DNA of 53,593 bases. Source: Bacteroidota bacterium. Its GTDB lineage: Bacteria; Bacteroidota; Bacteroidia; Bacteroidales; F082. The DNA is taken from contig JACNJS010000010.1 of NCBI GenBank assembly GCA_014382445.1, positions 213,548 to 267,140 on the forward strand. The letters run 5' to 3'. The notes beneath the pieces are model-generated. The model was not told the origin of the DNA and did not search any database. It saw only the letters and a list, made by a program, of their open reading frames with translations. Below are positions 25,873-53,412 of the stretch, piece by piece (position 1 is the stretch's first letter; each line of letters opens with the position of its first letter). Both the position numbers and the translations under genes were made by a program.

Positions 25873-28212
25873 ATGCAAGCAGTTCCCATCACAATAAAAT
25901 TCAACTTTCTATTTAAATTTATTGCGCCGCTAATAATTCTGTTTTTAGGATTAACAACTATTGCTCAAGAGGTTACTACGTACGACGAAGCAATTATTTA
26001 CGGAGACAAGCACTATGCCAACTCTGAACTGCTTAACGCAAAAGCCTACTACCAATTAGCTCTAAAACTTAAACCCGGCGATAATTATGCAAATGGAAAA
26101 ATATCAATCATTGTTGAAAAAATGAAATCCACTCTGGCTTCAGAAGATGAGTTCTACGATATTATTGATCTTGCTGATGAACTATACGATAAAAATGAAC
26201 TAAGTGCTGCAATAACCCTATTTCTTAAAGCACTAAAAATTATCCCTAATGACGAATACGCATTAACAAAAGTGCGAGAGATTGTGGAATTTCAAACCAA
26301 TGAAAAAGAAAAAATTGCCTCATTTGATAAAGCAATGGCAGCCGGGAGAGTTTATATTACCAACAAGCAATATGATAATGCAATCGCCAGCTTTCGTAAA
26401 GCTGCAGGTATTTTTCCGGAAAAAGATGCGCCAATAACTGAACTAAATAATGCCAATATTCTTAAAACAGAATATGAACGAAGGGAAGTAATTTTCAACC
26501 AGAAATTAGAAGATGCAGAAAAATACCTCCTTATAAAAAATTACGATAAAGCCTTAAATATTTATAAAGAAGCCGATAGCGTATTCCCTGAAAATAACGT
26601 GGCGAAGCAGAAAATTGCTGAGTTAATACCACTTAACAGCAAACAAAAAAAGTACAACAGTCAGATTGAAAAGGCAGATGAATTCTACGTTTCTAAAGAT
26701 TTTATTTCGGCTCGCAGGCAATATTTAGATGCATCGAAATTATGGCCCGAAAAAAATTATCCTGCCGACATGATAGAAAAAATTGATGAAAAACTGGAGG
26801 AAGGGAAAAAAGATCTTGAAAAAAACTACAAATTATATGTAACAATTGGTGACAGCCTGCTGGACATTGAAGCATATTCTGATGCACTTGCCAATTATAA
26901 CATGGCATTAAACCTCAAACCAGATGAAGCTTACCCACAGGCAAAAATTAATGCCATAACGCTATTGATGGCTGAGGATGCAAAACAAAAGCAAATAGAC
27001 GAAAAATACAATGAACTAATGCTTACAGCTGAGGGGTTGTTTAATCAAGATAAGCTAGTGGAGGCAAAAAGTTCATATGTCGATGCTGCCGAACTCAAAC
27101 CCTATGAGAATATACCTCATAGCCAAATAAACAGGATTGACAGTTTAATTTTTGTTAAAACAAAAATTGCTGAAATTAAGCAACAGTTTGATAGTACTAT
27201 TGAAGAGGGTGACTCCTTTAAAAATCAGAAGGAGTATGCTACCGCAATCGCAAGGTATGATCAGGCAATAGCTTTAATTCCTGGCGATAAATCAGCACAA
27301 CAAAAAAAGCTGGAGGTTGAAACCATTCAGATTAACATACAAAAGGAAGCAGAACTTAAAAAAACCTATGAGGATGCTGTTGCCAAAGGTGATAAACTGT
27401 TTGAAGATGGGAGTTTTGAGCTGTCGAGGGTTGAGTTTGAAAAAGCTCAGACTCTTAGAAATGATCAGCAATATCCGGTAAAACGTATCTTAGATATTGA
27501 TAATACACTTATAAAAATGGCAGCAGAACAAGAGAAACGCTATACTGAATCAGTAGTTGCCGCTGACAATTTCTTTGAACAGGGGCATTATGAAGATGCT
27601 GTTATAAAATACCAATTAGCCGGCAGCATTAAACCGGGTGAAAATTATCCTCAACAAAAAATAGCCGAATGTAATGGCTTTATTGCTGAAAAGTTAAAAC
27701 GGCTGTCAGCAGAATATAATGTTGCAATTGCAGATGCCGACAAATTATATGCATCAAAAATATACGACAAGGCTATAGTTGCTTACCGAAAAGCAGGTAA
27801 AATTAAATTAGATGAAACATACCCTGCCGAAATGATCGAGAAAATCAGCAGATACATCGAAGAAAATTCAATCGTTGATGTTATAAAGAGCTCCGATACA
27901 ATATCTTCGGGAATAACCGAAAAATTTGATTTTGAGCCGGTTAAAATAAATGTTAGAAAAAGTAACTATATCTTCCTCAAAGCCAAAAATTTAACCGGTA
28001 ATCCATTTAAAATAATATTTAGCTATGGAAGTGATACAGGTAAGAATGGGGGGTTTGTGGTTCAGGTTGTTGAAGGTGAAACAACTAATGATTATATTGT
28101 AAGAGTTGGAAACCAGTACAAATGGTTTGCTGAAGATAACAATTGGTTTACTATTATTCCTGAAAATGGGGATATTGAAATTACTATGCTTAGGATTTCA
28201 AAAAGTGATTAG
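25873..28212 (+). CDS. Large exported TPR-repeat protein
   Basis: From the ATG at 25873 the protein has about 779 residues. The frame is open to 25795, but the extra 26 residues are encoded by a spacer repeat, and the hydrophobic signal sequence (APLIILFLGLTTIAQ) starts properly only after 25873. The body is a chain of tetratricopeptide-type helical repeats (YxxALxxYxxAxxLxP words) separated by about 60-80 residues and linked by charged helices. The last ~90 residues form a beta-rich domain (FDFEPVKINVRKSNYIFLK onward). It probably acts as an envelope scaffold. It lies about 80 bp after lolD and is followed without a gap by a small TPR-like gene. Confidence 0.85.
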   Translation: MQAVPITIKFNFLFKFIAPLIILFLGLTTIAQEVTTYDEAIIYGDKHYANSELLNAKAYYQLALKLKPGDNYANGKISIIVEKMKSTLASEDEFYDIIDLADELYDKNELSAAITLFLKALKIIPNDEYALTKVREIVEFQTNEKEKIASFDKAMAAGRVYITNKQYDNAIASFRKAAGIFPEKDAPITELNNANILKTEYERREVIFNQKLEDAEKYLLIKNYDKALNIYKEADSVFPENNVAKQKIAELIPLNSKQKKYNSQIEKADEFYVSKDFISARRQYLDASKLWPEKNYPADMIEKIDEKLEEGKKDLEKNYKLYVTIGDSLLDIEAYSDALANYNMALNLKPDEAYPQAKINAITLLMAEDAKQKQIDEKYNELMLTAEGLFNQDKLVEAKSSYVDAAELKPYENIPHSQINRIDSLIFVKTKIAEIKQQFDSTIEEGDSFKNQKEYATAIARYDQAIALIPGDKSAQQKKLEVETIQINIQKEAELKKTYEDAVAKGDKLFEDGSFELSRVEFEKAQTLRNDQQYPVKRILDIDNTLIKMAAEQEKRYTESVVAADNFFEQGHYEDAVIKYQLAGSIKPGENYPQQKIAECNGFIAEKLKRLSAEYNVAIADADKLYASKIYDKAIVAYRKAGKIKLDETYPAEMIEKISRYIEENSIVDVIKSSDTISSGITEKFDFEPVKINVRKSNYIFLKAKNLTGNPFKIIFSYGSDTGKNGGFVVQVVEGETTNDYIVRVGNQYKWFAEDNNWFTIIPENGDIEITMLRISKSD

Positions 28213-28500
28213 ATGAACAAAGAATGGGAAAATCAGGAAATACTTGAACGAATTGAGAAGTTAAGTAAGGAAATTCAAAGTTCTGATAACAATCTGAATC
28301 TGTTACATTCAAGAGCACAACTATACACTAAGATTCAGGAACACAGTAAAGCAATAAACGACTATATTACCATACTTCAATCGAACCCTTCAGATAAAGA
28401 ATCACAAGTGAAACTTGAAATGCTACAAACAATCGTTAAGTTTACAAATACCAACATCTACGCAAGTACAAACACTAATATGGATCCGTGGCTGGAGTAG
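28213..28500 (+). CDS. Small TPR-like helical protein
   Basis: The 95-residue protein starts at the ATG that directly follows the TAG of the large TPR gene (28210-28212), so translation is almost certainly coupled. It has no signal peptide. Its helices include one TPR-like pair (LLHSRAQLYTKIQEHSKAINDYITILQSNPSD-type arrangement, about residues 30-60) and an Asn/Thr-rich tail ending in DPWLE. It may partner the upstream protein, although one would be cytoplasmic and the other exported. An AT-rich hairpin (28504-28522) follows. Confidence 0.7.
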   Translation: MNKEWENQEILERIEKLSKEIQSSDNNLNLLHSRAQLYTKIQEHSKAINDYITILQSNPSDKESQVKLEMLQTIVKFTNTNIYASTNTNMDPWLE

Positions 28501-28654
28501 AACAATAAATGTATTATTTATTAATGTTTCGATAGTTATTCCAGCCTGGTTTGTCACAGAAAGACATACACAGTTTGTCTCGTAAATATTAAAACCAATG
28601 CCCTAAGTATTGGATGAATGTTCAATTTCAGTGACCATCTTGTTACCACACGTT

Positions 28655-29791
28655 TTATTCATTTTTCGACACATAAATGGTCCACCATTTTTCTGATGGG
28701 AAAGTTGTTTTTCCAAGTATAACCGGCTCTCCAATTTTTGGTGTAGTTACAGGCATATTTAATTCATGTGCTTTTTTGGTTATTCTTTCAATTGGGTCAT
28801 TCCAATCATGAAAAGCCAATGTAAAAGCTCCCCAATGTATTGGTAGTATTAGCTTGCTTTTTAGGTCAATTGACGCTAGTACTGCCTCTTCCGGCATCAT
28901 ATGAAGAAGTTTCCAATCCTCATTGTATTGACCACATTCCATTAGTGAAATATCAAAAGGTCCATATTTTTCGCCTATATCCATAAAATGCGTGTCATAG
29001 CCACTATCTCCACTAAAGAAAATATTATCTTTTTTTCCTGCAATTACCCATGAACACCACAAAGTTGTTGATCTGTCAAATATTCCTCTTCCTGAAAAAT
29101 GTCGGGCGGGAGTACATACTAATTTTATACTATCAAATTCAATGCTTTCCCACCAATATAATTCGCTAATTTTTTCTTCTGCTATTCCCCATTCTACTAA
29201 ATGATTACCAACACCTAATGGGGTAAAGTAATGACCAACCTTTCCTTTTAATTTTTGAATTGATTCATAATCTAGGTGGTCATAATGGTCGTGAGATAAA
29301 ATTACGGCCTCAATTGCAGGTAGTTTTTCAATTTCAATAGGTACCTCTTTTGAGTAGCGTTTAGGACCAATTAATGAATGAGGCGAAGGTGACTTTCCTA
29401 ACATAGGGTCAATAAGAATTTTCTTACCACCCATTTCTAATAAGAACGTTGAATGACCAAACCACGTAAGTTTTGTAACGCCAGTGTTATGATTTTCAAT
29501 AGCTTTCAAGTTTATTTTTTCAACAATAATATTCTCATTTGGTTTTCTGTTGGGAGAGTCTTTTATCATTTTCTTAATCAATTCCCAATACTGCAAGTCC
29601 ATAGTAGTTGGATTTTGATTAATAAACTTTCCATTTTCGTAATTTCCTGATTTAGCGTATTCTATTTTTTTTTCTTTGGTTGCGCTTTTTCCAAACTGAG
29701 GGCTAAAAATCAAAAAAAGTGTTGCAACAATTATTATTAAACCATATATTGCAATAATAGAAATTCCAATCATTTTAAATAATTTTCTCAT
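28655..29791 (-). CDS. Membrane-anchored metallo-beta-lactamase-fold hydrolase (NAPE-PLD/UlaG-like)
   Basis: The 378-residue protein has an N-terminal membrane anchor (about 8-30) and then a metallo-beta-lactamase fold: LTWFGHSTFLLEM, the zinc motif SHDHYDHLD (HxHxDH), a second ligand region with RHFSGRGIFDR, FFSGDSGYD with the bridging Asp, and LPIHWGAF with the last His. The RHxSGRG...TLWCSW stretch resembles bacterial relatives of N-acyl-phosphatidylethanolamine phospholipase D. The natural substrate is unknown. The 3' end of a degraded group II intron lies about 50 bp upstream of the start. Confidence 0.88.
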   Translation of the reverse strand: MRKLFKMIGISIIAIYGLIIIVATLFLIFSPQFGKSATKEKKIEYAKSGNYENGKFINQNPTTMDLQYWELIKKMIKDSPNRKPNENIIVEKINLKAIENHNTGVTKLTWFGHSTFLLEMGGKKILIDPMLGKSPSPHSLIGPKRYSKEVPIEIEKLPAIEAVILSHDHYDHLDYESIQKLKGKVGHYFTPLGVGNHLVEWGIAEEKISELYWWESIEFDSIKLVCTPARHFSGRGIFDRSTTLWCSWVIAGKKDNIFFSGDSGYDTHFMDIGEKYGPFDISLMECGQYNEDWKLLHMMPEEAVLASIDLKSKLILPIHWGAFTLAFHDWNDPIERITKKAHELNMPVTTPKIGEPVILGKTTFPSEKWWTIYVSKNE

Positions 29792-29880
29792 TAAATACTA
29801 ATTACGTACTGTCTGTTTTAAATTAATGTAAACGATAAGTGTTGAGTAGGCAAGAGTAATTTCACACCAAGCCTCTCACT

Positions 29881-29914
29881 GAACCATACATGACGCATTC
29901 GCGTCATACGGCTC
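29881..29914 (-). ncRNA. Group II intron domain V
   Basis: On the minus strand the 34-nt element has the canonical domain V form: GAGCCGTA pairs with TATGGTTC (8 bp, G-U pairs included) and carries the AGC catalytic triad. A 2-nt bulge follows on the 3' side, then a 6-bp upper stem capped by a GAAT loop. Size, triad and bulge position all match. It is structurally intact, though the surrounding intron is not. Confidence 0.82.
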
Positions 29915-29936
29915 TCGTTATACAAATCTAAACGTT

Positions 29937-30074
29937 CTAGTTCGAAAAACCTAATTGCCAATGATAAAGAAGACAGGGAAACTGTTTCCGCACTCTATCT
30001 AACCACCGAAAAGCTATGTTTAAGCTTGTTCTATAACGTTTGTACCGTTTTCTTGCCCACCGAACTAAACGATT
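29937..30074 (-). pseudogene. C-terminal fragment of group II intron reverse transcriptase/maturase
   Basis: A 45-codon frame reads RLVRWARKRYKRYRTS, AFRWLDRVRKQFP, then LYHWQLGF before a TAG. This is the typical end of bacterial intron-encoded proteins (WARxKYKR, WLxRV, FxHWxxG), i.e. the maturase/DNA-binding tail. Upstream the same frame meets TGA codons at 30075-30077 and again about 35 bp on, with a poor match in between, so the gene is truncated and degenerate. Confidence 0.75.
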
Positions 30075-30255
30075 TCACAGTAGATAGAAAAATTCGTCAA
30101 TTCATAGCCCCTGAATTTTCCATAGTGTATTGAAAATTTTGATGACATTCAAGCCGTAGAATTTAAAACCTGAAAGACTATTAAATTTGAGAATTCAATA
30201 ACTTAAATAAGGGCATTATTTATTTAAGTTTTTAGGGGATATTTTAAATAATGAT

Positions 30256-30263
30256 TACCTTTG
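30256..30263 (+). promoter_or_regulatory. -7 box of the fic gene
   Basis: TACCTTTG matches TAnnTTTG; a start site near 30270 gives a leader of about 9 nt to the ATG at 30279. It overlaps the earlier in-frame start at 30261, which decides the start choice. Confidence 0.55.
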
Positions 30264-30278
30264 TTTAAAATTATTATC

Positions 30279-31403
30279 ATGAAACATTTTAAATCTGGAG
30301 AATATATAAGCCAGGGATACTACAAAAGTTTCCAACCTGAATTGATCAATAAACAATTGCAAATCAAAAATATGGAAGTAATGCAACTATTGAGTCAGGC
30401 TGATAGAGAAATTGGAAGACTTGATATGTATTCAAAATATGTCCCGAATATCGACTTATTTATTAGCATGCATGTATTGAAGGAAGCAACAAAAAGTAGC
30501 AAGATTGAGGGAACTCAGACAAACATGGATGAAGCCCTACTTGATATGGAAGACATTCCCTTAAACAAAAGAGATGATTGGGAAGAAGTTCAAAACTACA
30601 TTAAAGCAATGGAATGGGCAATAAGTGAACTAGAAAAGCTACCGTTCTCTTCAAGATTAATAAAAAATACTCACAAGATACTTTTGCAAGGAGTTAGAGG
30701 AGAAAAAAAACAACCCGGAGAATTTAGGAATAGCCAAAATTGGATTGGAGGCGCAACAATTAATGATGCCACTTTTATTCCACCTGTGCATACTTCAATT
30801 CCAGAATTAATGAGCGACTTAGAAAAATTTCTACATAATGAAGAAATATTTTTACCGGAATTATTAAAAATTGCTTTGGTTCATTATCAATTTGAAACAA
30901 CTCACCCATTTCTTGATGGAAATGGTAGAGTAGGACGATTATTAATTCCATTGTATTTGGTTAGCAAAAATATTTTGAAAAAGCCAGTATTGTATTTATC
31001 TGACTTCTTCGAAAAAAATCGAAAATTATACTACGATAACTTAATGATTGTTAGAGAGAAAAATGATTTAGATCAGTGGTTCAAGTTTTTTCTTGTTGGG
31101 ATAATTGAAACTGCTAGAAACGGGATTTTAACTTTTGATAATATTCTGCAATTACAAAAAAATACCGAAGAGAATGTTCAATTGTTAGGCAGCAGAGCTG
31201 TAAATGCAAAAAAAGTAGTAGATTATTTATATAAAAGACCATTAGTTAATGCTGAAAGGGTTAGTAAAATAACAGAAATATCGATGCCATCGTCCTACAA
31301 ACTAATTGCTGACTTAGAGAAAATGAACATTTTAAAAGAAGTTACAGGTGGTCAAAGAAGTAGGCAATATATATTTGATAATTATATAAAACTCTTTAGG
31401 TAA
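30279..31403 (+). CDS. Fic-domain protein (probable AMP transferase) with N-terminal inhibitory motif
   Basis: From the ATG at 30279 (374 aa) the protein has the Bacteroidota Fic layout: a helical N-terminal region with the autoinhibitory motif SSKIEG (Glu near residue 77), a Fic core with HPFLDGNGRVGR (catalytic His near 209; HPFx[D/E]GNGRxxR complete), and a C-terminal winged-helix segment (VVDYLYKRPL...PSSYKLIADLEKMNIL). Fic proteins transfer AMP (or other groups) to hydroxyls on target proteins; the inhibitory Glu keeps the enzyme off. An upstream codon at 30261 is also in frame but lies inside the predicted -7 box. No antitoxin-type neighbour; a single-gene unit next to the intron relic, plausibly acquired. 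Confidence 0.9.
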   Translation: MKHFKSGEYISQGYYKSFQPELINKQLQIKNMEVMQLLSQADREIGRLDMYSKYVPNIDLFISMHVLKEATKSSKIEGTQTNMDEALLDMEDIPLNKRDDWEEVQNYIKAMEWAISELEKLPFSSRLIKNTHKILLQGVRGEKKQPGEFRNSQNWIGGATINDATFIPPVHTSIPELMSDLEKFLHNEEIFLPELLKIALVHYQFETTHPFLDGNGRVGRLLIPLYLVSKNILKKPVLYLSDFFEKNRKLYYDNLMIVREKNDLDQWFKFFLVGIIETARNGILTFDNILQLQKNTEENVQLLGSRAVNAKKVVDYLYKRPLVNAERVSKITEISMPSSYKLIADLEKMNILKEVTGGQRSRQYIFDNYIKLFR

Positions 31404-31628
31404 AAACGTCCAGTTGCCAACCAATGCTCATCCCGCACTTAGTTGTAAGCAGGAACATTAGTGCTATTAATTAAACACGATTGTAACCAGAAAAATAATT
31501 GTTCTGCATGGGGTTTGAAGCTTGAACAACTTCTGACTTCTAACTTCTGGCTTCCGTTTATGATTAGGTAATTTCAAAACGAATTTCATTCGTGCAATAA
31601 ACCTATTGAACTTTTAGTCCATAGTGGT

Positions 31629-42739: not shown

Positions 42740-43955
42740 CTATTTAGTTTCGGTGTTTCCAATGCTTATACTGTACCAATCAATTTTTCGTGAGAAATAC
42801 ATCACAATTCCAAGTATGACAAATATTCCAATACTTCCTATTAATAACGCATAATCTTCTAATTGGATTATGGTAAATATAAAAGTATACAAAATTATCA
42901 GAATACCCAGGATTAAACCACCAATTTTTTTTGACTTTAAGATTGCCGTCGTGTACCCGGTTACCAATAGTAAAGTAAGTATTGATGCTAAGAGGTATGA
43001 TAAATTAAACCTGATGTGCTCGCTAAGTGCAAGTAGTAAAGAATAAAAAACTACCAATGCTATCCCAACCAACAGGTAGTAGCATATCCGTTCCAAATGA
43101 ACTGTTTTGTACACTGTAATGACTACCTTTCCAACTCTGCGGATAGTTTCTGTTCAAGTGAAGAATATTCCAAAATGCAGTAAAACCGGCATTCGATATA
43201 TTTCTATCGTCCGGAAGGTAATTACCCGTAAAACTGGGTGTCGGCCAATCTGACTTTAAATTAACATCGGTGGTTTTACCAACCGGGACAAAATATAAAT
43301 ACTGACTACCTTTTAAGTCTATTTCCATTGAAAAAGTATAGTTCAAAGAATCATGATTAACAACCGGGATTGTAGCATTTATACCGCTCGATACAATATC
43401 ATTTGTACTTGTGCCGGAGTTAAAGAAGATACTTCTATCGTTCCAGTTTAAACTAATCTGTTTTTCAATCCCTTTCAGGTCAGTTATTCCAAGATTAAGA
43501 GTAGCTTTATCAAAATGAATATCTCTGCTATCAATGTCAAATTGTTTAAAATCAAGCTCATTAAAAATCCCGCTAATTTTTAAAGCTGACTCATACACAA
43601 CAACTTCATAAATTCCTCTGTATCTTTTTTCAGGAGAAATTGTGCCATCAATAATGAGTTGTTCAGGTAAAAAATATAACCAATCCTGAATCTTAATTAT
43701 TTTATCAATCGAATCTTTTTTAGAAAACTGTTTAATATATTTGTTATATGGTATCGCTATATACGGCCCCGTGATGGTTTGCCCATCTCCCCACTTTGAA
43801 CTTACTTCATTAATGGCGCTCAGTTGAATAACTTCTCGCTCATGAATAAGTTCTTGAACCATCGTTGTTGGGATAAGTAATATTAAAATCATGATAACGA
43901 TTATACCAACCTTAAAAAATACATTGCTTTTTAGATTTTTCATTTCTTTTTTCAT
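42740..43955 (-). pseudogene. creD: creD (inner membrane protein) with internal deletion and frameshift
   Basis: The N-terminal part (from 43955) is typical CreD: one membrane helix (VGIIVIMILILLIPTTMVQE), then the periplasmic domain with INEVSSKWGDGQTITGPYIAIPY, up to NSSFGTDMLLPV. The family should continue with NHYQK and two more helices, but here the sequence jumps directly to YLLVGIALVVFYSLLLALSEH in another frame, followed by the normal four-helix C-terminus to 42740. About 40-50 residues are missing and the frames do not join, so a functional protein is not made. The junction lies at about 43065-43085. An 8-bp direct repeat would explain it (see finding). Confidence 0.85.
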
Positions 43956-44139: not shown

Positions 44140-44147
44140 TACTTTTG
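44140..44147 (+). promoter_or_regulatory. Promoter -7 box of the B12-uptake operon
   Basis: TACTTTTG matches TAnnTTTG; the start site would be near 44153, just before the riboswitch aptamer. The -33 region has only a TTTA (44118-44121). Confidence 0.5.
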
Positions 44148-44154
44148 CTACTAA

Positions 44155-44335
44155 CAATGGTGTCAATTCCATCTGACCTGATGGATGACTTAATAGGGAA
44201 ACAGGTGTGAAACCTGTACAGTTCCCGCTGCTGTAATACTCAAATACAGCTTTTGAAACCCGGTCACTTTCTGCCTAAGGCAGATGGGAAGGCCTCAAAA
44301 GCGAGTAAGTCAGAAGACCTGCCTTTGTAATGTTT
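44155..44335 (+). promoter_or_regulatory. Cobalamin riboswitch
   Basis: The ~180-nt leader has the conserved core of the cobalamin riboswitch: AATAGGGAA, GGTGTGAAACC hairpin, CAGTTCCCGCTGCTGTAA, a variable stem with TCTGCCTAAGGCAGA, and the B12 box CAGAAGACCTGCC near 44311-44324. It binds adenosylcobalamin or related cobamides and lowers expression of downstream genes when cobalamin is abundant. Four genes on the same strand follow, the first start codon at 44451. Between aptamer and ATG two copies of the self-complementary AAAGCTTT (44340 and 44439) may form the expression platform. The stretch 43956-44139 upstream holds no gene. Confidence 0.95.
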
Positions 44336-44450
44336 GATCAAAGCTTTCGGGATAAAAGCAAGATGATATTACTGTCATTAAATTTCGTTTATTCCTGTAA
44401 AGTTTTGAGGTTTAATTAACTAATTATTTTTTAACCTTAAAGCTTTTTTT

Positions 44451-45731
44451 ATGAAAAAAACTTACTTCTCATTAATGTTTACAGCTACTATGCTGTTATT
44501 CGTGCAAATTAACTTTGCGCAAAACACGTTTACCAAACAGGTAATTGTTTGTTCGGGTGGTAACATTTCCAACCCCAATGATTTTGTTACAATAGCTTCC
44601 TATTCGCCAGTTACAGGTGTTACTACCGTTTTCGACACCATTCAAACACAATCGGTGCAGGATGTTATTATCGAAAAAGAATTTGCTTTTGTTGCCGCAC
44701 AGGATTCAATTGTTAAATTCAATATTGATACTTATGAAAAAATAGCTGCTGTTGAAGCAGTTGGTGTTAACAGGTTGCTTGTTAATAATGATGAACTTAT
44801 TGCTTCTTTTCAATATCCTGTTACAGAGAATTTTGTGAGGGTTTATTCTGCCGAAGACCTTTCACTGATAAGTAACATCGAAGAAGTTTCGGATGAATCG
44901 GCAGGATTGCTGGTTGTTGATGAACTTGCATATGTAGCCGTGCCCGGAGGCTGGGCCAGTACAGTTGGTAAAATTGCAATAATTGACCTTGCAGATTATT
45001 CATTGGTAGAGGAGATTAATTTTGACACTATTGGAAGAGGAATTGTTGATCTGTTCTATTCTGATAATAAGATCATGTCGGTAAACAGAACTCCCTGGGG
45101 GGGATCATCAGGGTATATTTCTGTTATGAACCGGCTGGGTTCACATTCTCAATCTCATCTCATAAATGAATATATTGGGCCTATGTCAGGACTCATTAAT
45201 AACATATTATATATTGAAGTTAATGGTGGCATTGGGTCTATCGATTTAACCGATTTTTCAGTTCTCGACACAGTATTAGTGCAACCACCGGCATTAACAA
45301 TCGCAGATGTAGCAATGGACACTCTGAACAAACTGTTTTACGTAACAACTACCGATTTTTTTTCCACAGGTTTGGGTACTATTTATAACCTTGATGGTGA
45401 AGATATAGGCAGTTTTGAAGCTGGAATCTCCCCTGATGCTATAGCTATCGATTACAGGGATAATACAGGAACAGGTGAGTTATTTTCAGAAAACCTTATC
45501 AAAATTTATCCAAATCCTTCTTCAGGAGTAATTATCGTTGAAGTTATTGAGGGAACTTATCCTGAAAATTTCAGGGTTGTAGATATTAGTGGTCGTTCAC
45601 TTATAAGTGGATTTATAAACTTAAAAACGAAATCCTCAGCCATTGATATAAACATGCTTGAAAACGGGCTGTACTTTTTGATATTGTCTGACGGTAATAA
45701 GATGATGACAAGTCCCATTATTAAAAACTAA
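44451..45731 (+). CDS. T9SS-exported beta-propeller protein of a B12-uptake operon
   Basis: The 426-residue protein starts with a signal peptide (to about FAQ, residue 24). Residues 25-330 are repeated four-strand blades of the YncE/DUF5074 type (TYEKIAAVEAVGVNRLLVNNDELIASF-like words), followed by a T9SS type A sorting domain (about 345-426: KIYPNPSSGVIIVEV onward, ending in PIIKN). It is the first gene after the cobalamin riboswitch and precedes a second sorted protein (5- or 8-bp gap) and a BtuB-like receptor. The fold matches BtuG, a B12-binding surface propeller of Bacteroides, but here with T9SS delivery. Corrinoid binding is inferred from context and fold. Confidence 0.8.
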   Translation: MKKTYFSLMFTATMLLFVQINFAQNTFTKQVIVCSGGNISNPNDFVTIASYSPVTGVTTVFDTIQTQSVQDVIIEKEFAFVAAQDSIVKFNIDTYEKIAAVEAVGVNRLLVNNDELIASFQYPVTENFVRVYSAEDLSLISNIEEVSDESAGLLVVDELAYVAVPGGWASTVGKIAIIDLADYSLVEEINFDTIGRGIVDLFYSDNKIMSVNRTPWGGSSGYISVMNRLGSHSQSHLINEYIGPMSGLINNILYIEVNGGIGSIDLTDFSVLDTVLVQPPALTIADVAMDTLNKLFYVTTTDFFSTGLGTIYNLDGEDIGSFEAGISPDAIAIDYRDNTGTGELFSENLIKIYPNPSSGVIIVEVIEGTYPENFRVVDISGRSLISGFINLKTKSSAIDINMLENGLYFLILSDGNKMMTSPIIKN

Positions 45732-45739
45732 ACATTTTG

Positions 45740-46744
45740 ATGACACCAAAAGAAAAAGGTTTTAAATCAAATATTTTTCTGATAATCCTCATTTCATTAA
45801 TCATTGGATCTATCAATTCATTGTCGGCGCAATATGCTCCATCATATAGGCAATCAACCACAACAGCAATTCATGCCGACAGCAATGTTTTTGTTGATTG
45901 GGCTAACAAATGTATTGTTTCCAGAGGATGGATTGATATTTCGATGCCGGAATATGGTTGGGTAACTTACGGAATTGAAGACTATGGCCTTGCCAAAGCC
46001 GATAATGCCGTTGTTAGCCTTGGCGATGGTGGTGGAGTCGTTTTAAACTTTAATACTCCTATTGCGGATGGACAGGGTTGGGATTTTGCCGTATTCGAAA
46101 ACTCTTTTTCACACGATTTTCTTGAACTTGCCTTTGTGGAAGTTAGCTCAAATGGTGTTGACTATTACAGATTTAACTCTATATCGCTCACACAGCAAGA
46201 TACGCAGGTTGGTACATTTGGTTTGATTGATACAGCAATGATTTATAATTTGGCCGGTAAATACAGAGCATTGTACGGTGTGCCTTTCGATTTATCGGAA
46301 CTGAAATATATTTCCGGACTCGACTTAACAAATATTATTTCTGTTAGAATTATCGATGTAGTTGGCAGTATCGATAGCAATTTTGCTTCATACGATTCGG
46401 AAGGTAGAATTATTAACGATCCCTGGCCTACACCTTTCGAATCGGGAGGTTTCGACCTTGATGCTGTTGGAGTTATCCACAATCGTGATAACACCTCGGT
46501 AAACGAAATTGTTAAAAACGCCAGCGGAATAATTTACCCAAATCCAGTGGGTAACTATTTTATGATTTCTGAAAAGGAGAAGATTAACAAAGTTAGTATA
46601 ACAGATATGAGTGGTAAACTAATTTTAGAATATGCTTTTCCAGACAATAATTACTTTGATGCGCAATTTCTGCCGGCAGGTTTATACATTGTTAATATAT
46701 ATTGTGAAGAAAAACTTTTAAACGATATGTTGATAAAACATTAG
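45740..46744 (+). CDS. T9SS-exported surface protein of a B12-uptake operon
   Basis: From the ATG at 45740 (the TTG at 45737 is in frame but less likely) the protein has 334 residues: a signal anchor (about 12-30), a core (45-250) with SLGDGGGVVLNFNTPIADG, GWDFAVFENSF and ELAFVEVSSNGVDYYRF, and a T9SS type A domain (from IIYPNPVGNYF). The core belongs to a widespread group of secreted proteins simply named cell surface protein that co-occur with cobalamin riboswitches and TonB receptors in several phyla. The Gly/Asp-rich loop suggests a ligand-binding or calcium site. Likely an auxiliary corrinoid-capture protein; it stands 6 bp upstream of the receptor gene. Confidence 0.78.
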   Translation: MTPKEKGFKSNIFLIILISLIIGSINSLSAQYAPSYRQSTTTAIHADSNVFVDWANKCIVSRGWIDISMPEYGWVTYGIEDYGLAKADNAVVSLGDGGGVVLNFNTPIADGQGWDFAVFENSFSHDFLELAFVEVSSNGVDYYRFNSISLTQQDTQVGTFGLIDTAMIYNLAGKYRALYGVPFDLSELKYISGLDLTNIISVRIIDVVGSIDSNFASYDSEGRIINDPWPTPFESGGFDLDAVGVIHNRDNTSVNEIVKNASGIIYPNPVGNYFMISEKEKINKVSITDMSGKLILEYAFPDNNYFDAQFLPAGLYIVNIYCEEKLLNDMLIKH

Positions 46745-46750
46745 GATAAT

Positions 46751-48718
46751 ATGTCCAAAATATGTCTAAAATATCAGCTTATTATTTTATTCATTCTTGG
46801 TTTAGCGTCGAATGTGCAGAGCCAATATATTTATGATACATTGCAACTCAGCGAGTTGGAAGTGATCAGCTATCATAATGACCTAAACTCCACTTCAAAA
46901 GTTACAACCCTCAACTCAATAGCACGCAAAGAGCTAAGCCTTAATGACATTGGCGAACTCCTATCTGCTTATACTCCGGTTTTTGTAAAATCATATGGCA
47001 GAGGATCGCTATCCACAGTTTCATTTAGAGGAACCGGAGCGTCCCATACTAAGGTGGTTTGGGAAGGATTTAATATCAACTCACCAATGCTGGGCCAAAC
47101 TGATTTTTCGCAGTTGCCGGGATCGTTTTTTGATGAAGTTGAACTGCTTTATGGAGGTGGATCGTTAATTGCCGTAAGTGGTGCCCTGGGAGGAAGTATT
47201 AACTTGAAAAGCTGTAAATCCCTTAACGATAATTTGTTAAGCATTAGGCAATCTGTCGGAAGTTTTAATACCTACAATACCTCTGCTGAATTAAATTTTA
47301 CAATATCCGGTGTTAGTTCAGGCACACGGATTATAAGGCAATCATCGTTGAACAATTTTCCTTATTTCAACAATGCAATTTTACCTTCAGGCAGGGAAAT
47401 GATTCAATCCAACGCTAATTTTATTACAAAGGGGTTTACGCAGCAGTTCTCATATCGAATATCTGACAAACAGGAAATTACATTCATTTCCTGGAATCAA
47501 TGGAATGATCGTAATATTCCGACTATTATGACAAATATCGAAAAGGGAGGAAGTCAGGAGGAAAGCCAAAAAGATTTTTTTTCAAGAAATATACTGAAGT
47601 GGGTTCTGCAAAAACCTAAAACCAAATGGGAAGTAAAAGGAGCTTATTTTGTTGAAGAACTGAATTATTTTCTTCAAACCTCCGATACACTCAAAAACAT
47701 AATTTCGTTAATCGATTCCCGTAACAGAGTAGAAAATTATTCGTTTGCATGGAATGTGTCGAATGAATTAAAAAAGAACCTGATTTTAAAAGCAGGTATG
47801 GAATTACGACAACAACAGGTAGTTAGCAACAATTATACGGACTCAAAACATCGAAGAATTATTAATAGCTATGTCAGTCTTAAAACGAGCTTTAAAAATA
47901 TGCTTACGGCTGAAGCTTTGATTCGTTCCGAAATATCGGATGCCGAATTTGTACCTCTGATGCCTATGTTAGGAATAAATTATAAACCGTTTACTGATCG
48001 TGATTTTCATTTTAGGGTGAATGTTTCACGTAACTTTAATCTGCCCTCATTAAACGATGTTTACTGGTATCCCGGAGGAAATGAAGATCTGCTACCAGAG
48101 CAGAGTTTTGAAGCTGAAACAGGACTGGATTACAAAATAAAACTTACTGGTAAACATATTATAACGCTTAGCGGTAGTGCTTACACATCATCAGTTAAAA
48201 ACTGGATAATCTGGTTACCCGGTGATTACAGATATTGGAGTCCTGAAAATATTGCGAGTGTTCACGCACGAGGAATCGAATTGTCCTTACATATTAATGG
48301 CAACTTTCGCAAAATAAGATATAATGTTTTTGGTGAATACGCTTACACTCGTACCACCAACAACAGCAAAAGTGCTAAAATAAGCGGGTTATCAGATATT
48401 CAGTTGTTATATGTCCCTGAACATTCTGCAAACGGATATCTAAATATTAGCAAAATGGACTACTATGCTAACTGGAGTTTGATGTTTACGGGTTCGCGAA
48501 ATACTTCGCTAAACAATGATAAGGAGTACTCATTTACACTGCCACATTACATCATCAACAATTTCTCGATGGGTAAAAAATTTAAATTAAAAAAAACACT
48601 GTTCGACCTTAGGTTTAAAATATATAATTTATTTAATGTTGATTATCAGGCAGTTTTGTGGAGAGCAATGCCTGGGCGGAATTATGAAATATCATTGAGT
48701 TGTAGTATATTAAGATAA
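46751..48718 (+). CDS. btuB: BtuB-like TonB-dependent receptor
   Basis: The 655-residue protein has a signal peptide, a plug domain (about 35-155: LSELEVISYHNDLNS, VFVKSYGRGSLSTVSFRGTGASHTKVVWEGFNINSPMLGQ, LYGGGSLIAVSGALGGSINL) and a 22-strand-type barrel ending with a C-terminal aromatic-containing strand (NYEISLSCSILR). It imports a ligand across the outer membrane using TonB energy. The cobalamin riboswitch and the propeller neighbours mark it as a B12/corrinoid receptor. There is no N-terminal carboxypeptidase-like domain as in SusC, so it is closer to BtuB than to SusC. It is third in the operon. Confidence 0.9.
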   Translation: MSKICLKYQLIILFILGLASNVQSQYIYDTLQLSELEVISYHNDLNSTSKVTTLNSIARKELSLNDIGELLSAYTPVFVKSYGRGSLSTVSFRGTGASHTKVVWEGFNINSPMLGQTDFSQLPGSFFDEVELLYGGGSLIAVSGALGGSINLKSCKSLNDNLLSIRQSVGSFNTYNTSAELNFTISGVSSGTRIIRQSSLNNFPYFNNAILPSGREMIQSNANFITKGFTQQFSYRISDKQEITFISWNQWNDRNIPTIMTNIEKGGSQEESQKDFFSRNILKWVLQKPKTKWEVKGAYFVEELNYFLQTSDTLKNIISLIDSRNRVENYSFAWNVSNELKKNLILKAGMELRQQQVVSNNYTDSKHRRIINSYVSLKTSFKNMLTAEALIRSEISDAEFVPLMPMLGINYKPFTDRDFHFRVNVSRNFNLPSLNDVYWYPGGNEDLLPEQSFEAETGLDYKIKLTGKHIITLSGSAYTSSVKNWIIWLPGDYRYWSPENIASVHARGIELSLHINGNFRKIRYNVFGEYAYTRTTNNSKSAKISGLSDIQLLYVPEHSANGYLNISKMDYYANWSLMFTGSRNTSLNNDKEYSFTLPHYIINNFSMGKKFKLKKTLFDLRFKIYNLFNVDYQAVLWRAMPGRNYEISLSCSILR

Positions 48719-48761
48719 GATTATTGCCACAGATTACACTAAATTCCAATATCGAACCAAT

Positions 48762-49808
48762 ATGATAAAAAAGTTAATTTTCCTGTTAATTATCGTCCAA
48801 CTCATTTCTTGCACCGGGAAAGAAGATATTGACCCGGATACAATTCAAATTGAAGAAGGTGGCGTTTTTATATTAAATGAAGGTAATTTTTCTGCTGCTA
48901 ATTCTTCGTTATCCTATTATTTTCCTGCTACTTCCGAAATCAATAACAATTTGTTCTACCAGGTGAATGATGTACCTCTTGGCGATGTTGCTCAAAGTAT
49001 GACAATAAACAAAAACATAGTTTATCTGATAATTAATAATTCGGGCAATGTTTACGGAATAAACCGCGAAACCCTTGAATTTGAAGGTAAAATTAGCGGA
49101 TTGATTTCTCCACGCGAGATGGTATTTATTAATGATCAAAAAGCCTATATTTCTGACCTTTACAGTACGGCAATAACAATTGTTAATCCTGAAAATTTTG
49201 AAATTACCGGAAATATTGAAATAGGAAAAAGTAGTGAATGCATGGTAAAATCAGGTAACAGAATTCTGGTTGCAAACTGGTCGGCATATAATCAGACAGG
49301 GATTAATAATACTATTATGGTGATTGATACAGAAACTGATGCCCTGATTGATTCAATTGTTGTTGGCATTGAGCCGAACTCAGTGGTTATTGATAGAGAT
49401 GAGTTATTATGGGTAATGTGCAGCGGTGGATTTATGAACGACGAATTGCCAACATTGTGGAAGATTAATCCTGGTACATTAGAAGTTGAGAAAGCATTAA
49501 CTTTCACTAACATTCTTCAAAGTCCTGATAATTTATGCATTAATGGCACCCTAGATACACTTTATTTCCTTAACAAAGGAGTATTTTGCATGTCAGTTTA
49601 TGATCAGGAGCTACCTGACGATACAATAATTTCGGAGGACGACAATAATTATTATGCTGTAGGGATTGATCCGGTAACAAATGAAATATATGTTTCGGAT
49701 GTTTTAGATTATAACCAAAATGGTATGGTTTTTAGGTATAGTCCGACGGGAAATCTTATTTCATCGTTTGAGGCAGGAATTATTCCTGGGTGTTTTGAAT
49801 TTAATTAA
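48762..49808 (+). CDS. BtuG-like beta-propeller lipoprotein
   Basis: The 348-residue protein has a lipoprotein signal with Cys at residue 17 (LISC), then a six- or seven-bladed propeller of the YncE/DUF5074 type: GGVFILNEGNFSAANSSLSYY, VYGINRETLEFEGKISG, AYISDLYSTAITIVNPENF, ILVANWSAYN and so on. Bacteroides BtuG proteins of this fold sit on top of BtuB and bind B12 with very high affinity. This one is the last gene of the riboswitch operon, 43 bp after the receptor, and lacks a T9SS domain. It ends 8 bp before the hutI stop on the other strand. Confidence 0.85.
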   Translation: MIKKLIFLLIIVQLISCTGKEDIDPDTIQIEEGGVFILNEGNFSAANSSLSYYFPATSEINNNLFYQVNDVPLGDVAQSMTINKNIVYLIINNSGNVYGINRETLEFEGKISGLISPREMVFINDQKAYISDLYSTAITIVNPENFEITGNIEIGKSSECMVKSGNRILVANWSAYNQTGINNTIMVIDTETDALIDSIVVGIEPNSVVIDRDELLWVMCSGGFMNDELPTLWKINPGTLEVEKALTFTNILQSPDNLCINGTLDTLYFLNKGVFCMSVYDQELPDDTIISEDDNNYYAVGIDPVTNEIYVSDVLDYNQNGMVFRYSPTGNLISSFEAGIIPGCFEFN

Positions 49809-51324: not shown

Positions 51325-53412
51325 ATGAAATCAAAAGTTTTACTTAGCATTTTGGTGATATTTACAGTTACTGCAAGTATCTTCGCAAAAGACATTAGCT
51401 TATCAAAAGCTGAACAAGTTGCCGTTAATTTCTTTTTTCAAAAATCGAATCAATATGGCGACGCAATAAACTACTATGATTTAAATATTTCTGAAACTTA
51501 TTTAGTTGATCAGTCATATTATGTAATTAATTTTGAAAACGGTTGGGTAGTCGTGTCAGCAAACGATGTTATGACCCCTGTTCTTGGTTATAATTTTTCA
51601 AAAAGTTTTCCTGAAATTGATGATCAAATAGACAATTTTAAAAGCTGGATGCAAACTTATGTTGATCAGGTAAATTTTATTCGTGAAAATGATATTGAAG
51701 CTGCTGTTGATGTAATTGAAGCATGGAATACTTATACAACTAATGATCCATCAGTCTTTAATTTAAGAGGCGACCGCGACATCGATCCCTTATTAACAAA
51801 CATGTGGAATCAGGACAATCCTTACAATGCAATGTGTCCTGTTGATGCTGCAGGCCCCGGCGGACATGTTTATGTGGGTTGTGTTGCTACTGCTATGTCG
51901 ATGATAATGCATTACTGGAGATATCCTCTCCAGGGAACAGGTTCTCACAGTTATTACATATACCCTTATGGTACACAAAGTGCCAACTTTGGCGAAGCTG
52001 ATTATGATTGGAATGGTATGACTGATGTTATTAATAATAAATTCATTTGGGAGATTGCCGAAATAAGTTTCCATTCTGCTGTTTCTGTTGACATGGCGTT
52101 CTCACCTGATGGATCAGGAGCTTATAGTAATGATGTTCCCTATGCTCTTATTAATTATTTTAATTACCAGTCGGCTGTACAGTACCTGTCTAAAAACAGC
52201 TATCCCACTTCAACCTGGGAAAACATGATGCAAACAGAGTTAAACAACTTCCGACCAATTTATTACTCAGGACGTAATACTGATAATGGTGGCCATGCAT
52301 TTGTTTGCGATGGATATCAGGGAACTAATTACTACCATTTTAATTTTGGATGGAGTGGCTCTGGCAATGGATTTTATTCGCTGCAGGATATAAACGGATT
52401 TTACCTGCAACAGGGAATGGTAAGAAACATTTATCCTGGCGATGCATCCTATCCATATATTGTAACCGGACAGACGGATCTTGGTAATCTTGTTGGATCA
52501 TTTACTGATGGTAGCGGACCAGCCGAAGATTATCCGATTGGTATGGATGCTTCATGGTTGATTTCCCCACAAAACGAAATAGATTCAGTAACAAGTATTA
52601 CGCTTTCTTTTATCGAATTTAATACTGCCAGCAGCGACATGTTTCGCATTTATGATGGCGGTGATGAAAGTGCCGAGTTATTGGGTGAATTCTCGGGTAA
52701 CAATCTGCCTTCCAATATAAGTTCAAGTGGCAACCAATTATATATAACATTTAGCTCCACCGGCACCGGTGAGGGATTTAAATTAGAATATGTTGCCCAA
52801 ATTCCTACATGGTGTTCTTCAGAAGTTTTTTCTGAACCAGCTGGAACAATTACCGATGGCAGTTTTGACTTTTATTACAATAATGCCACCAACTGTGTTT
52901 TTACCCTTACCCACCCTGAAGCTGTAAGATACACACTTGATTTTACTGCCATGGCTACCGAAGAAGATTTAGATAATATTAGAGTATATAATGGTGCTAC
53001 AGGTTCTTTGGTAGGTGAATTCTCCGGCCACACCCTGCCCGACCCAATTGTGATTGATGCAAACGCTGTTCTACTAATGTGGAGTACAAACTCAACAATT
53101 AGAGATGAAGGATGGTCGGTTGATTATAATGTTGATGGTGTTGGTTTTGAAGAAACAATCGTTGAAAACCTATCAATATTTCCAAATCCTACTACCGGTT
53201 TGTTGAATATTAATTTCAATGCAGAAAAACAAAGGAATATTAATATTAAACTTATCAGTATTACCGGACAGGTAATTTTGGATGAAGAAATGAACTCAGT
53301 GTCTGGTCAGTACAATAATAATTTCGATATTAGTAATAATGCTAAAGGAATTTATTTGCTTAGCATTACCACTGATAATAAAAAAATAGACAGTAAGATT
53401 GTATTAAAATAA
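51325..53412 (+). CDS. T9SS-exported C10-family cysteine protease with CUB-like domains
   Basis: The 695-residue protein has a signal peptide, an inhibitory propeptide (about 22-130, streptopain/SpeB type), and a C10 papain-like catalytic domain: Cys186 in VGCVATAMSMIMHYW and His324 in NGGHAFVCDGY, with FNFGWSGSGNGFY. Two beta-rich CUB-type segments follow (about 380-495 and 498-605; YDGGDESAELLGEFSG, YNGATGSLVGEFSG), then a T9SS type A sorting domain (from LSIFPNPTTGLLNINF to KIVLK). It is a secreted protein-degrading enzyme. A single-gene unit with its own promoter and a strong terminator. Confidence 0.93.
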   Translation: MKSKVLLSILVIFTVTASIFAKDISLSKAEQVAVNFFFQKSNQYGDAINYYDLNISETYLVDQSYYVINFENGWVVVSANDVMTPVLGYNFSKSFPEIDDQIDNFKSWMQTYVDQVNFIRENDIEAAVDVIEAWNTYTTNDPSVFNLRGDRDIDPLLTNMWNQDNPYNAMCPVDAAGPGGHVYVGCVATAMSMIMHYWRYPLQGTGSHSYYIYPYGTQSANFGEADYDWNGMTDVINNKFIWEIAEISFHSAVSVDMAFSPDGSGAYSNDVPYALINYFNYQSAVQYLSKNSYPTSTWENMMQTELNNFRPIYYSGRNTDNGGHAFVCDGYQGTNYYHFNFGWSGSGNGFYSLQDINGFYLQQGMVRNIYPGDASYPYIVTGQTDLGNLVGSFTDGSGPAEDYPIGMDASWLISPQNEIDSVTSITLSFIEFNTASSDMFRIYDGGDESAELLGEFSGNNLPSNISSSGNQLYITFSSTGTGEGFKLEYVAQIPTWCSSEVFSEPAGTITDGSFDFYYNNATNCVFTLTHPEAVRYTLDFTAMATEEDLDNIRVYNGATGSLVGEFSGHTLPDPIVIDANAVLLMWSTNSTIRDEGWSVDYNVDGVGFEETIVENLSIFPNPTTGLLNINFNAEKQRNINIKLISITGQVILDEEMNSVSGQYNNNFDISNNAKGIYLLSITTDNKKIDSKIVLK

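Follow-up and report, generated by a model that had tools for sequence, protein, structure and literature searches.

What is known of vitamin B12 capture in the Bacteroidota comes largely from gut Bacteroides, where the extra binding proteins beside the importer are lipoproteins. A 53,593-nucleotide stretch of a Bacteroidota genome (GCA_014382445.1, contig JACNJS010000010.1, positions 213,548–267,140; hereafter the window) raises the question of whether the same job could be done by proteins sent out through the type IX secretion system (T9SS). In this stretch a cobalamin riboswitch is followed by four genes, here called A to D, the first two of which encode proteins ending in T9SS sorting tails. 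Judged by profile comparison and structure prediction, the best reading of the pair is that A corresponds to BtuG and B to BtuH, both in T9SS-sorted form, beside a BtuB-BtuG importer.

A riboswitch-preceded operon with a BtuB-BtuG importer

The riboswitch aptamer (RF00174) occupies 44141–44340 of the forward strand, where the covariance model is matched over its full length (positions 1–189) and scores 89.2 bits (gathering score 31.5; E 8.5e-21). It is the sole such match found in the window and in the whole 3.47-Mb genome, which is 96% complete. The fold of 44310–44460, a possible expression platform, is not unusual (z −1.05). Genes A (44451–45731, 426 aa), B (45740–46744, 334 aa), C (46751–48718, 655 aa) and D (48762–49808, 348 aa) follow on the same strand at intervals of 8, 6 and 43 bases. 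The length of B is counted from an ATG; the program that listed the open reading frames (ORFs) begins it at a TTG at 45737. The flanking genes, with ends at 43955 and 49817, both lie on the reverse strand. A first-pass annotation, made from the letters alone, had described a cobalamin riboswitch and four close-set genes, and the covariance model and the reading frames bear this out.

The predicted products of C and D are the standard BtuB-BtuG importer. C, a TonB-dependent corrinoid receptor, carries a plug domain (PF07715, 42.2 bits in Pfam), and its best match in the PDB is the Bacteroides BtuB 8bmx_C (E 1.8e-71); E. coli BtuB is matched far more weakly (about 1e-9), and at 75.9 bits C falls below the 599.7-bit cut-off of the NCBIfam BtuB equivalog TIGR01779. 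D scores 98.8 bits against DUF5074 (PF16819, cut-off 27.2) and matches BtuG entries in the PDB down to E 2.2e-76. When D is aligned with BtuG2, 135 of 333 aligned residues are identical, and C17 falls on the lipid-anchor Cys32. Five residues of the BtuG2 B12 site are named as Trp194, Tyr239, Trp272, Tyr316 and Tyr335 (PMC10404256). Three of them are kept in D (W173 for Trp194, Y298 for Tyr316 and Y317 for Tyr335), and two are altered (Tyr239 to F224, Trp272 to S254). The earlier descriptions of C as a BtuB-like receptor and of D, checked here against the BtuG structures by sequence, as a BtuG-like propeller lipoprotein adjoining btuB are therefore upheld.

A is a propeller of the BtuG fold

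Protein A comprises a propeller domain (residues 25–338, 44523–45464, delimited by the strands of the predicted structure) and a T9SS type A sorting tail (residues 352–421, 45504–45713; PF18962, 38.1 bits, cut-off 27). Pfam recognises the tail alone. The first-pass annotation had called A a propeller with a T9SS tail and had proposed comparing its predicted structure with BtuG. An AlphaFold2 model built with 20 relatives is a confident beta-propeller with a predicted local distance difference test score (pLDDT) of 87.5. In a Foldseek search of 350,542 PDB chains, the 12 top places were all taken by BtuG, from eight entries (3dsm, 8bmz, 8bai, 8bmx, 8bmy, 8bn0, 8okv and 8p97), with template-modelling (TM) scores by target of 0.73–0.78 at 13–14% identity. 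A profile of the domain from 21 homologs, searched against PDB sequences, likewise had BtuG1 as its best match (8blw_B, E 0.0025; runner-up 0.56). Because both searches lead to BtuG, we assign A the BtuG fold and a probable BtuG ancestry: A probably descends from BtuG, yet it lies outside the DUF5074 family as curated. The lipobox expected of a BtuG was not found in A or in any of its 35 homologs, as judged by a crude pattern on mechanically called ORFs.

B is a distant BtuH-type protein

The domain of B (residues 29–253, 45824–46498) stands outside any Pfam family, and is followed by a sorting tail of the same type (residues 265–324, 46532–46711; PF18962, 36.9 bits). Apart from the tail, Pfam finds nothing in B, and a PKD domain is not matched; a profile of the domain searched against PDB sequences gave nothing relevant up to E 10. 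The structural model, a beta-sandwich, is confident (pLDDT 90.0). Its Foldseek matches are weak and mixed; they include sandwiches of CBM32 and F5/8 type as well as the BtuH-domain structures 8blw_B (17th place) and 7biz_A (19th).

The sequence link between B and BtuH emerged only once BtuH homologs were gathered; the PDB sequence search alone did not give it. One such homolog (L174, 9031–10488, reverse strand), encoded in a riboswitch-bearing stretch, matches both structures by sequence (8blw_B, E 1.7e-42; 7biz_A, 7.4e-37), and BtuH-domain proteins are present in 53 of the 247 genomes of the order. Aligned by hhalign with the BtuH domain, a profile of 42 B domains reached a probability of 94–95% and scores of 56.6–59.2, with E values of 4e-8 to 1e-7 in one-to-one comparison (3.8e-8 in one run). 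By comparison with the real score of 56.6, 100 column shuffles scored at most 24.5 and the reversed profile 15.1, and the DUF4465-like, DUF4430-like and A-propeller profiles scored 11.8–17.0 against B. A further control, B against the tail profile, was not discriminating (203.6). We attribute this to residues common to the two sets: each tail was cut as the final 80 residues and may extend into the B domain. Hidden Markov model searches found the link in both directions: the BtuH profile reached 27.5 bits among B proteins, where reversed sequences gave 3.0, and the B profile reached 22.2 bits among BtuH proteins.

The aligned core includes a residue with a described role. In BtuH2, Asn399 and Gln333 are named as nucleotide-loop contacts, to its phosphate and ribose (PMC8941943), and both are invariant in all 31 BtuH rows of our alignment. 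Asn399 aligns with N121 of B, which is invariant in two alignments of B proteins (61/61 and 42/42 rows), and Phe401 aligns with F123, where phenylalanine is found in 49/61 and 40/42 rows. By these comparisons B is homologous to the C-terminal B12-binding domain of BtuH, as a distant BtuH-type domain, and it plausibly grips the same side of the corrinoid. B had earlier been described only as a second T9SS-tagged surface protein; the tail stands, and the identity is now sharpened to BtuH type. An assignment of B to DUF4465, the BtuJ family, was considered and rejected: PF14717 is unmatched in B and in the whole genome, and hhalign gives a probability of 0.3%.

B and BtuH are rarely found in one genome, as would be expected of functional equivalents. 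The two co-occur in 3 genomes where 15 are expected (70 genomes with B, 53 with BtuH; Fisher p 1e-5), and counts by family, of which 120 were assumed, agree (4 observed, 12 expected; p 6e-4). We treat this avoidance as supporting evidence only, because common descent or a common habitat could produce it too.

The T9SS tails recur in relatives

That two of the three candidate capture proteins carry T9SS tails, as claimed at first, is supported by both tail families: A and B exceed the cut-off of PF18962 and also that of NCBIfam TIGR04183 (40.3 and 45.2 bits, cut-off 23). With 130 matches above the sorting-tail cut-off in this genome, from 150 scored candidates, a pair of adjacent tailed genes would by itself be modest evidence. 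The pairing goes beyond chance because relatives have the tails too. Pfam recognises one in all 61 B proteins and in 13 of the 14 A proteins. A purpose-built profile, for which the B proteins served as training set, detects a tail in all but one of 140 B homologs (139) and in each of 35 A homologs, with duplicates counted. The sole B homolog that lacks a tail ends at a contig end.

Two adjacent T9SS sortase ORFs (1306.6 and 1210.7 bits, each above the family cut-off) lie outside the window in the same genome (C29:28367–35495). With their tails, and with this sortase as the T9SS component searched, A and B qualify as predicted T9SS type A substrates. The genome also encodes MetH, the B12-dependent methionine synthase. 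The corrin-ring gene CbiC was looked for and not found; one gene makes a thin test, but the result fits a corrinoid scavenger.

The layout is widespread

A survey of Bacteroidota loci for the T9SS version, suggested by the first-pass annotation, found that 70 of the 247 genomes of the order, the present one included, have a domain-level B match with an E value of at most 2.2e-30. Two samples, which overlap, supplied the neighbourhoods. One comprises 60 of the 69 further genomes with such a match, and the other the best 80 of at least 522 matches in a scan of named genomes. Both samples favour B proteins that resemble the present one, and removal of duplicates reduced 140 loci to 132. Tail, DUF4465-like and DUF4430-like labels in these loci come from purpose-built profiles. 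Among the matches listed in the named-genome scan are titles from the Flavobacteriales, Saprospiraceae, Chitinophagales, Chlorobiota and Ignavibacteria; these organism labels are record titles, many of which belong to metagenome bins, and some may be in error.

Within the 60 fetched loci, a cobalamin riboswitch lies on the same strand within 4.5 kb upstream of B in 50, at about 9.3 kb in two, and in eight none qualifies. L079 is counted among these eight because its over-long ORF start overlaps the riboswitch, and a separate riboswitch count with stricter filters loses weak matches. A BtuB or BtuG homolog is encoded within 7 kb on the same strand at 105 of the 132 distinct loci, and 131 of the 132 distinct B proteins are tailed. 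An A-type propeller occurs at 32 of these loci, always tailed. Two propellers with different anchoring in one operon had at first been called unusual; A and D are found together at 26 of the 132 loci, in a sample chosen by similarity to B, and that view is not supported.

BtuG homologs show the opposite pattern, with a lipobox in 73 of 93 and a T9SS-type tail in three. Two of these three (L145, from the cultured relative Winogradskyella undariae, and L160) were scanned, and both combine DUF5074 with a Pfam-recognised tail. Clear BtuH homologs are themselves tailed in 19 of 30 fetched cases by the purpose-built profile (L174, L192–L221). The altered export route thus seems to affect several families of B12 binders.

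The gene before B is interchangeable

If B is so constant, what precedes it? Directly before B, the 132 loci have a tailed DUF4465-like gene in 40 cases, a tailed A-type propeller in 26 (and in five more with an added DUF4430-like domain), a tailed DUF4430-like gene in 18, and a tailed DUF5074 propeller in three. Ten loci have a recognised gene without a tail, and in 30 nothing was recognised; 92 of the 102 recognised genes therefore end in a T9SS-type tail. Pfam confirmed DUF4465 in eight of eight proteins, of which seven are tailed (L035, L040, L064, L113, L120, L133 and L089) and one is not (L062). DUF4430 passed the Pfam cut-off in four of the ten proteins tried, and the DUF4430-like label is accordingly a loose one.

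The family that most often fills this position has a described function. DUF4465 is the BtuJ domain, for which B12 binding has been reported, with eight distantly related members, and its genes are often co-located with plug-domain (BtuB) and DUF5074 genes (PMC13398666). DUF4465 is also found by Pfam within 7 of 61 B proteins. In five loci (L060, L072, L080, L082 and L090) the B domain, DUF4465 and a T9SS tail are fused, which would place two candidate corrinoid binders in one chain.

DUF4430 is the domain reported at the C-terminus of vertebrate transcobalamins (PMC4350170). The DUF4430 proteins of B12 operons could possibly be a bacterial counterpart of these proteins. Tailed proteins that pass the DUF4430 cut-off stand before B in L067 (8506–9663), L101 (8803–9984), L116 (8361–9983) and L163 (8814–9992).

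Proposed mechanism and alternative explanations

We put at roughly 0.7 the probability that the locus is a corrinoid-repressed uptake operon whose products A and B are exported by the T9SS as external corrinoid catchers that feed BtuBG. When intracellular B12 is low, the riboswitch would permit expression of the operon, and C (BtuB) and D (the lid lipoprotein BtuG) would form the outer-membrane importer. A and B would cross the inner membrane by ordinary signal peptides and the outer membrane by the T9SS, and would then act outside the cell with high affinity for corrinoids, A in the manner of BtuG, by its propeller face, and B in the manner of BtuH, from the nucleotide-loop side. Transfer would run from A (BtuG face) to B (BtuH side), then to D (BtuG) and C (BtuB). 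We infer the repression by corrinoids, the binding of corrinoids by A and B, and their export, tail removal, anchoring and order of hand-over.

A more general version of this mechanism is tentative, and we consider it somewhat less probable than even. In cobalamin bound by BtuJ or BtuG the lower ligand faces outward, and BtuH holds the opposite side; a transfer from BtuJ to BtuH to BtuBG has been proposed (PMC12751083). T9SS-bearing Bacteroidota might use a modular relay of the same kind, in which a variable catcher passes its ligand to a near-constant BtuH-type B and thence to BtuG and BtuB. The variable, T9SS-sorted catcher would be a BtuG-fold propeller, a DUF4465 jelly roll or a DUF4430 transcobalamin-type domain. 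If such a relay operates, the constancy of B beside an interchangeable neighbour would follow from the alternation of faces, BtuJ or BtuG on one side and BtuH on the other. The arrangement yields a testable rule, namely a constant BtuH-type partner adjoining an interchangeable catcher.

Several observations weigh against A and B as corrinoid catchers. A is only 13–14% identical to BtuG and lacks a DUF5074 match, and its model also matches other propellers, with 1130 chains at E ≤ 0.001. The structural match of B to BtuH is weak on its own: E values are about 2e-3, root-mean-square deviations are 8.4 for 7biz_A and 11.3 for 8blw_B, and query TM scores are 0.35 and 0.31, respectively, with CBM32 and F5/8 domains nearby in the list. 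As 8blw_B contains both BtuG and BtuH, the Foldseek output also does not indicate which part of it B matches. The confident core of the B-BtuH profile alignment spans just 50–61 columns, and a forced global alignment falls to 82.5%. The counterpart of Gln333, Q38, lies in a low-confidence part and is kept in 25/61 and 24/42 rows, and the BtuH2 corrin-ring contacts His476, Tyr510, Trp511 and Trp577 could not be placed in the B alignment. Corrinoid binding by A and B is a prediction, and BtuK2 and BtuL, although encoded in B12 operons of B. thetaiotaomicron, failed to bind B12 (PMC12751083).

The last of these points suggests a different role, in which A and B are surface helpers that bind no corrinoid and instead dock on BtuBG, open the lid or shape vesicles, as BtuL may do. 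Both BtuL and BtuK2 reside in B12 operons without binding B12, and BtuL has an effect on the early release of vesicles (PMC12751083). Nevertheless, DUF4465 proteins, for whose family B12 binding has been demonstrated, often occupy the position before B, A has the fold of BtuG, and B retains the phosphate-contact asparagine of BtuH. We therefore consider the helper role unlikely.

A different question is where the catchers would act. T9SS substrates may be surface-anchored or released, and A and B could be set free in the medium as "B12-ophores" or public traps and recovered through BtuBG. BtuJ carried on vesicles has been compared with siderophores (PMC12751083), a parallel that favours release. 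A free trap would seem costly outside dense biofilms, however, and none of the evidence gathered here separates release from anchoring; we regard free release as improbable. Finally, there is little probability that B is a CBM32 or F5/8 carbohydrate or surface module that attaches the cell, or the capture protein, to polysaccharide or to a B12-producing neighbour, with the catching left to A or its substitutes: several such structures are among the first 50 Foldseek hits of B, but the profiles tie B to BtuH (in a comparison set without a CBM32 profile), its invariant positions include the counterpart of the phosphate-contact Asn of BtuH2, and B and BtuH rarely co-occur, for which ancestry or habitat could account too.

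Relation to known B12 capture systems

As putative external catchers beside BtuBG, A and B belong to a locus much like those of B. thetaiotaomicron (BtuB, BtuG, BtuH, BtuJ, BtuK, BtuL), which also have a riboswitch, BtuB with a BtuG lipoprotein, and extra binders in each operon. The A-B pair recalls BtuGH of that species, which fuses BtuG and BtuH domains. The extra binders of B. thetaiotaomicron are predicted lipoproteins (PMC12751083), whereas A and B are T9SS-tailed and the homologs of A lack a lipobox. D is a plain member of the BtuG (DUF5074) family; A shares the fold at low identity, with a T9SS tail in place of the lipobox. B resembles the C-terminal domain of BtuH2 (7biz) and BtuGH (8blw) in its supported core, with the phosphate-contact Asn, and in the type of operon. 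In contrast to BtuH2, a lipoprotein with N-terminal PKD domains, B has a T9SS tail and a shorter chain in which PKD is unmatched.

A third comparison concerns BtuJ. We take IPR026444 to be the T9SS sorting domain. It is carried by 229 of 824 DUF4465 sequences (PMC12751083), which makes DUF4465 a B12-binder family with T9SS-type tails whose members fill the slot before B or are fused to it; neither A nor B is itself DUF4465. The word "T9SS" is absent from PMC12751083 and from the main texts of PMC8941943, PMC6143338, PMC10404256 and PMC13398666. Among the open-access papers listed in our searches we saw no report of T9SS-sorted proteins of BtuG or BtuH type, which leaves their absence unproven; DUF4465 with such a tail signature is already in print. 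The survey suggests that many Bacteroidota outside the gut Bacteroides would capture B12 by T9SS-exported proteins, perhaps held by polysaccharide or released, and it provides a function hypothesis for B, a widespread domain without a Pfam entry.

Other features of the window

A group II intron domain was detected at 29841–29916 on the reverse strand (Rfam, 56.1 bits). None of the three ORFs of at least 150 aa that overlap 27000–31500 resembles a reverse transcriptase by eye. Past the amidohydrolase gene that adjoins the operon, 51325–53412 encodes a Peptidase C10 that contains two CUB stretches as well as a Spi inhibitor domain and carries a T9SS tail.

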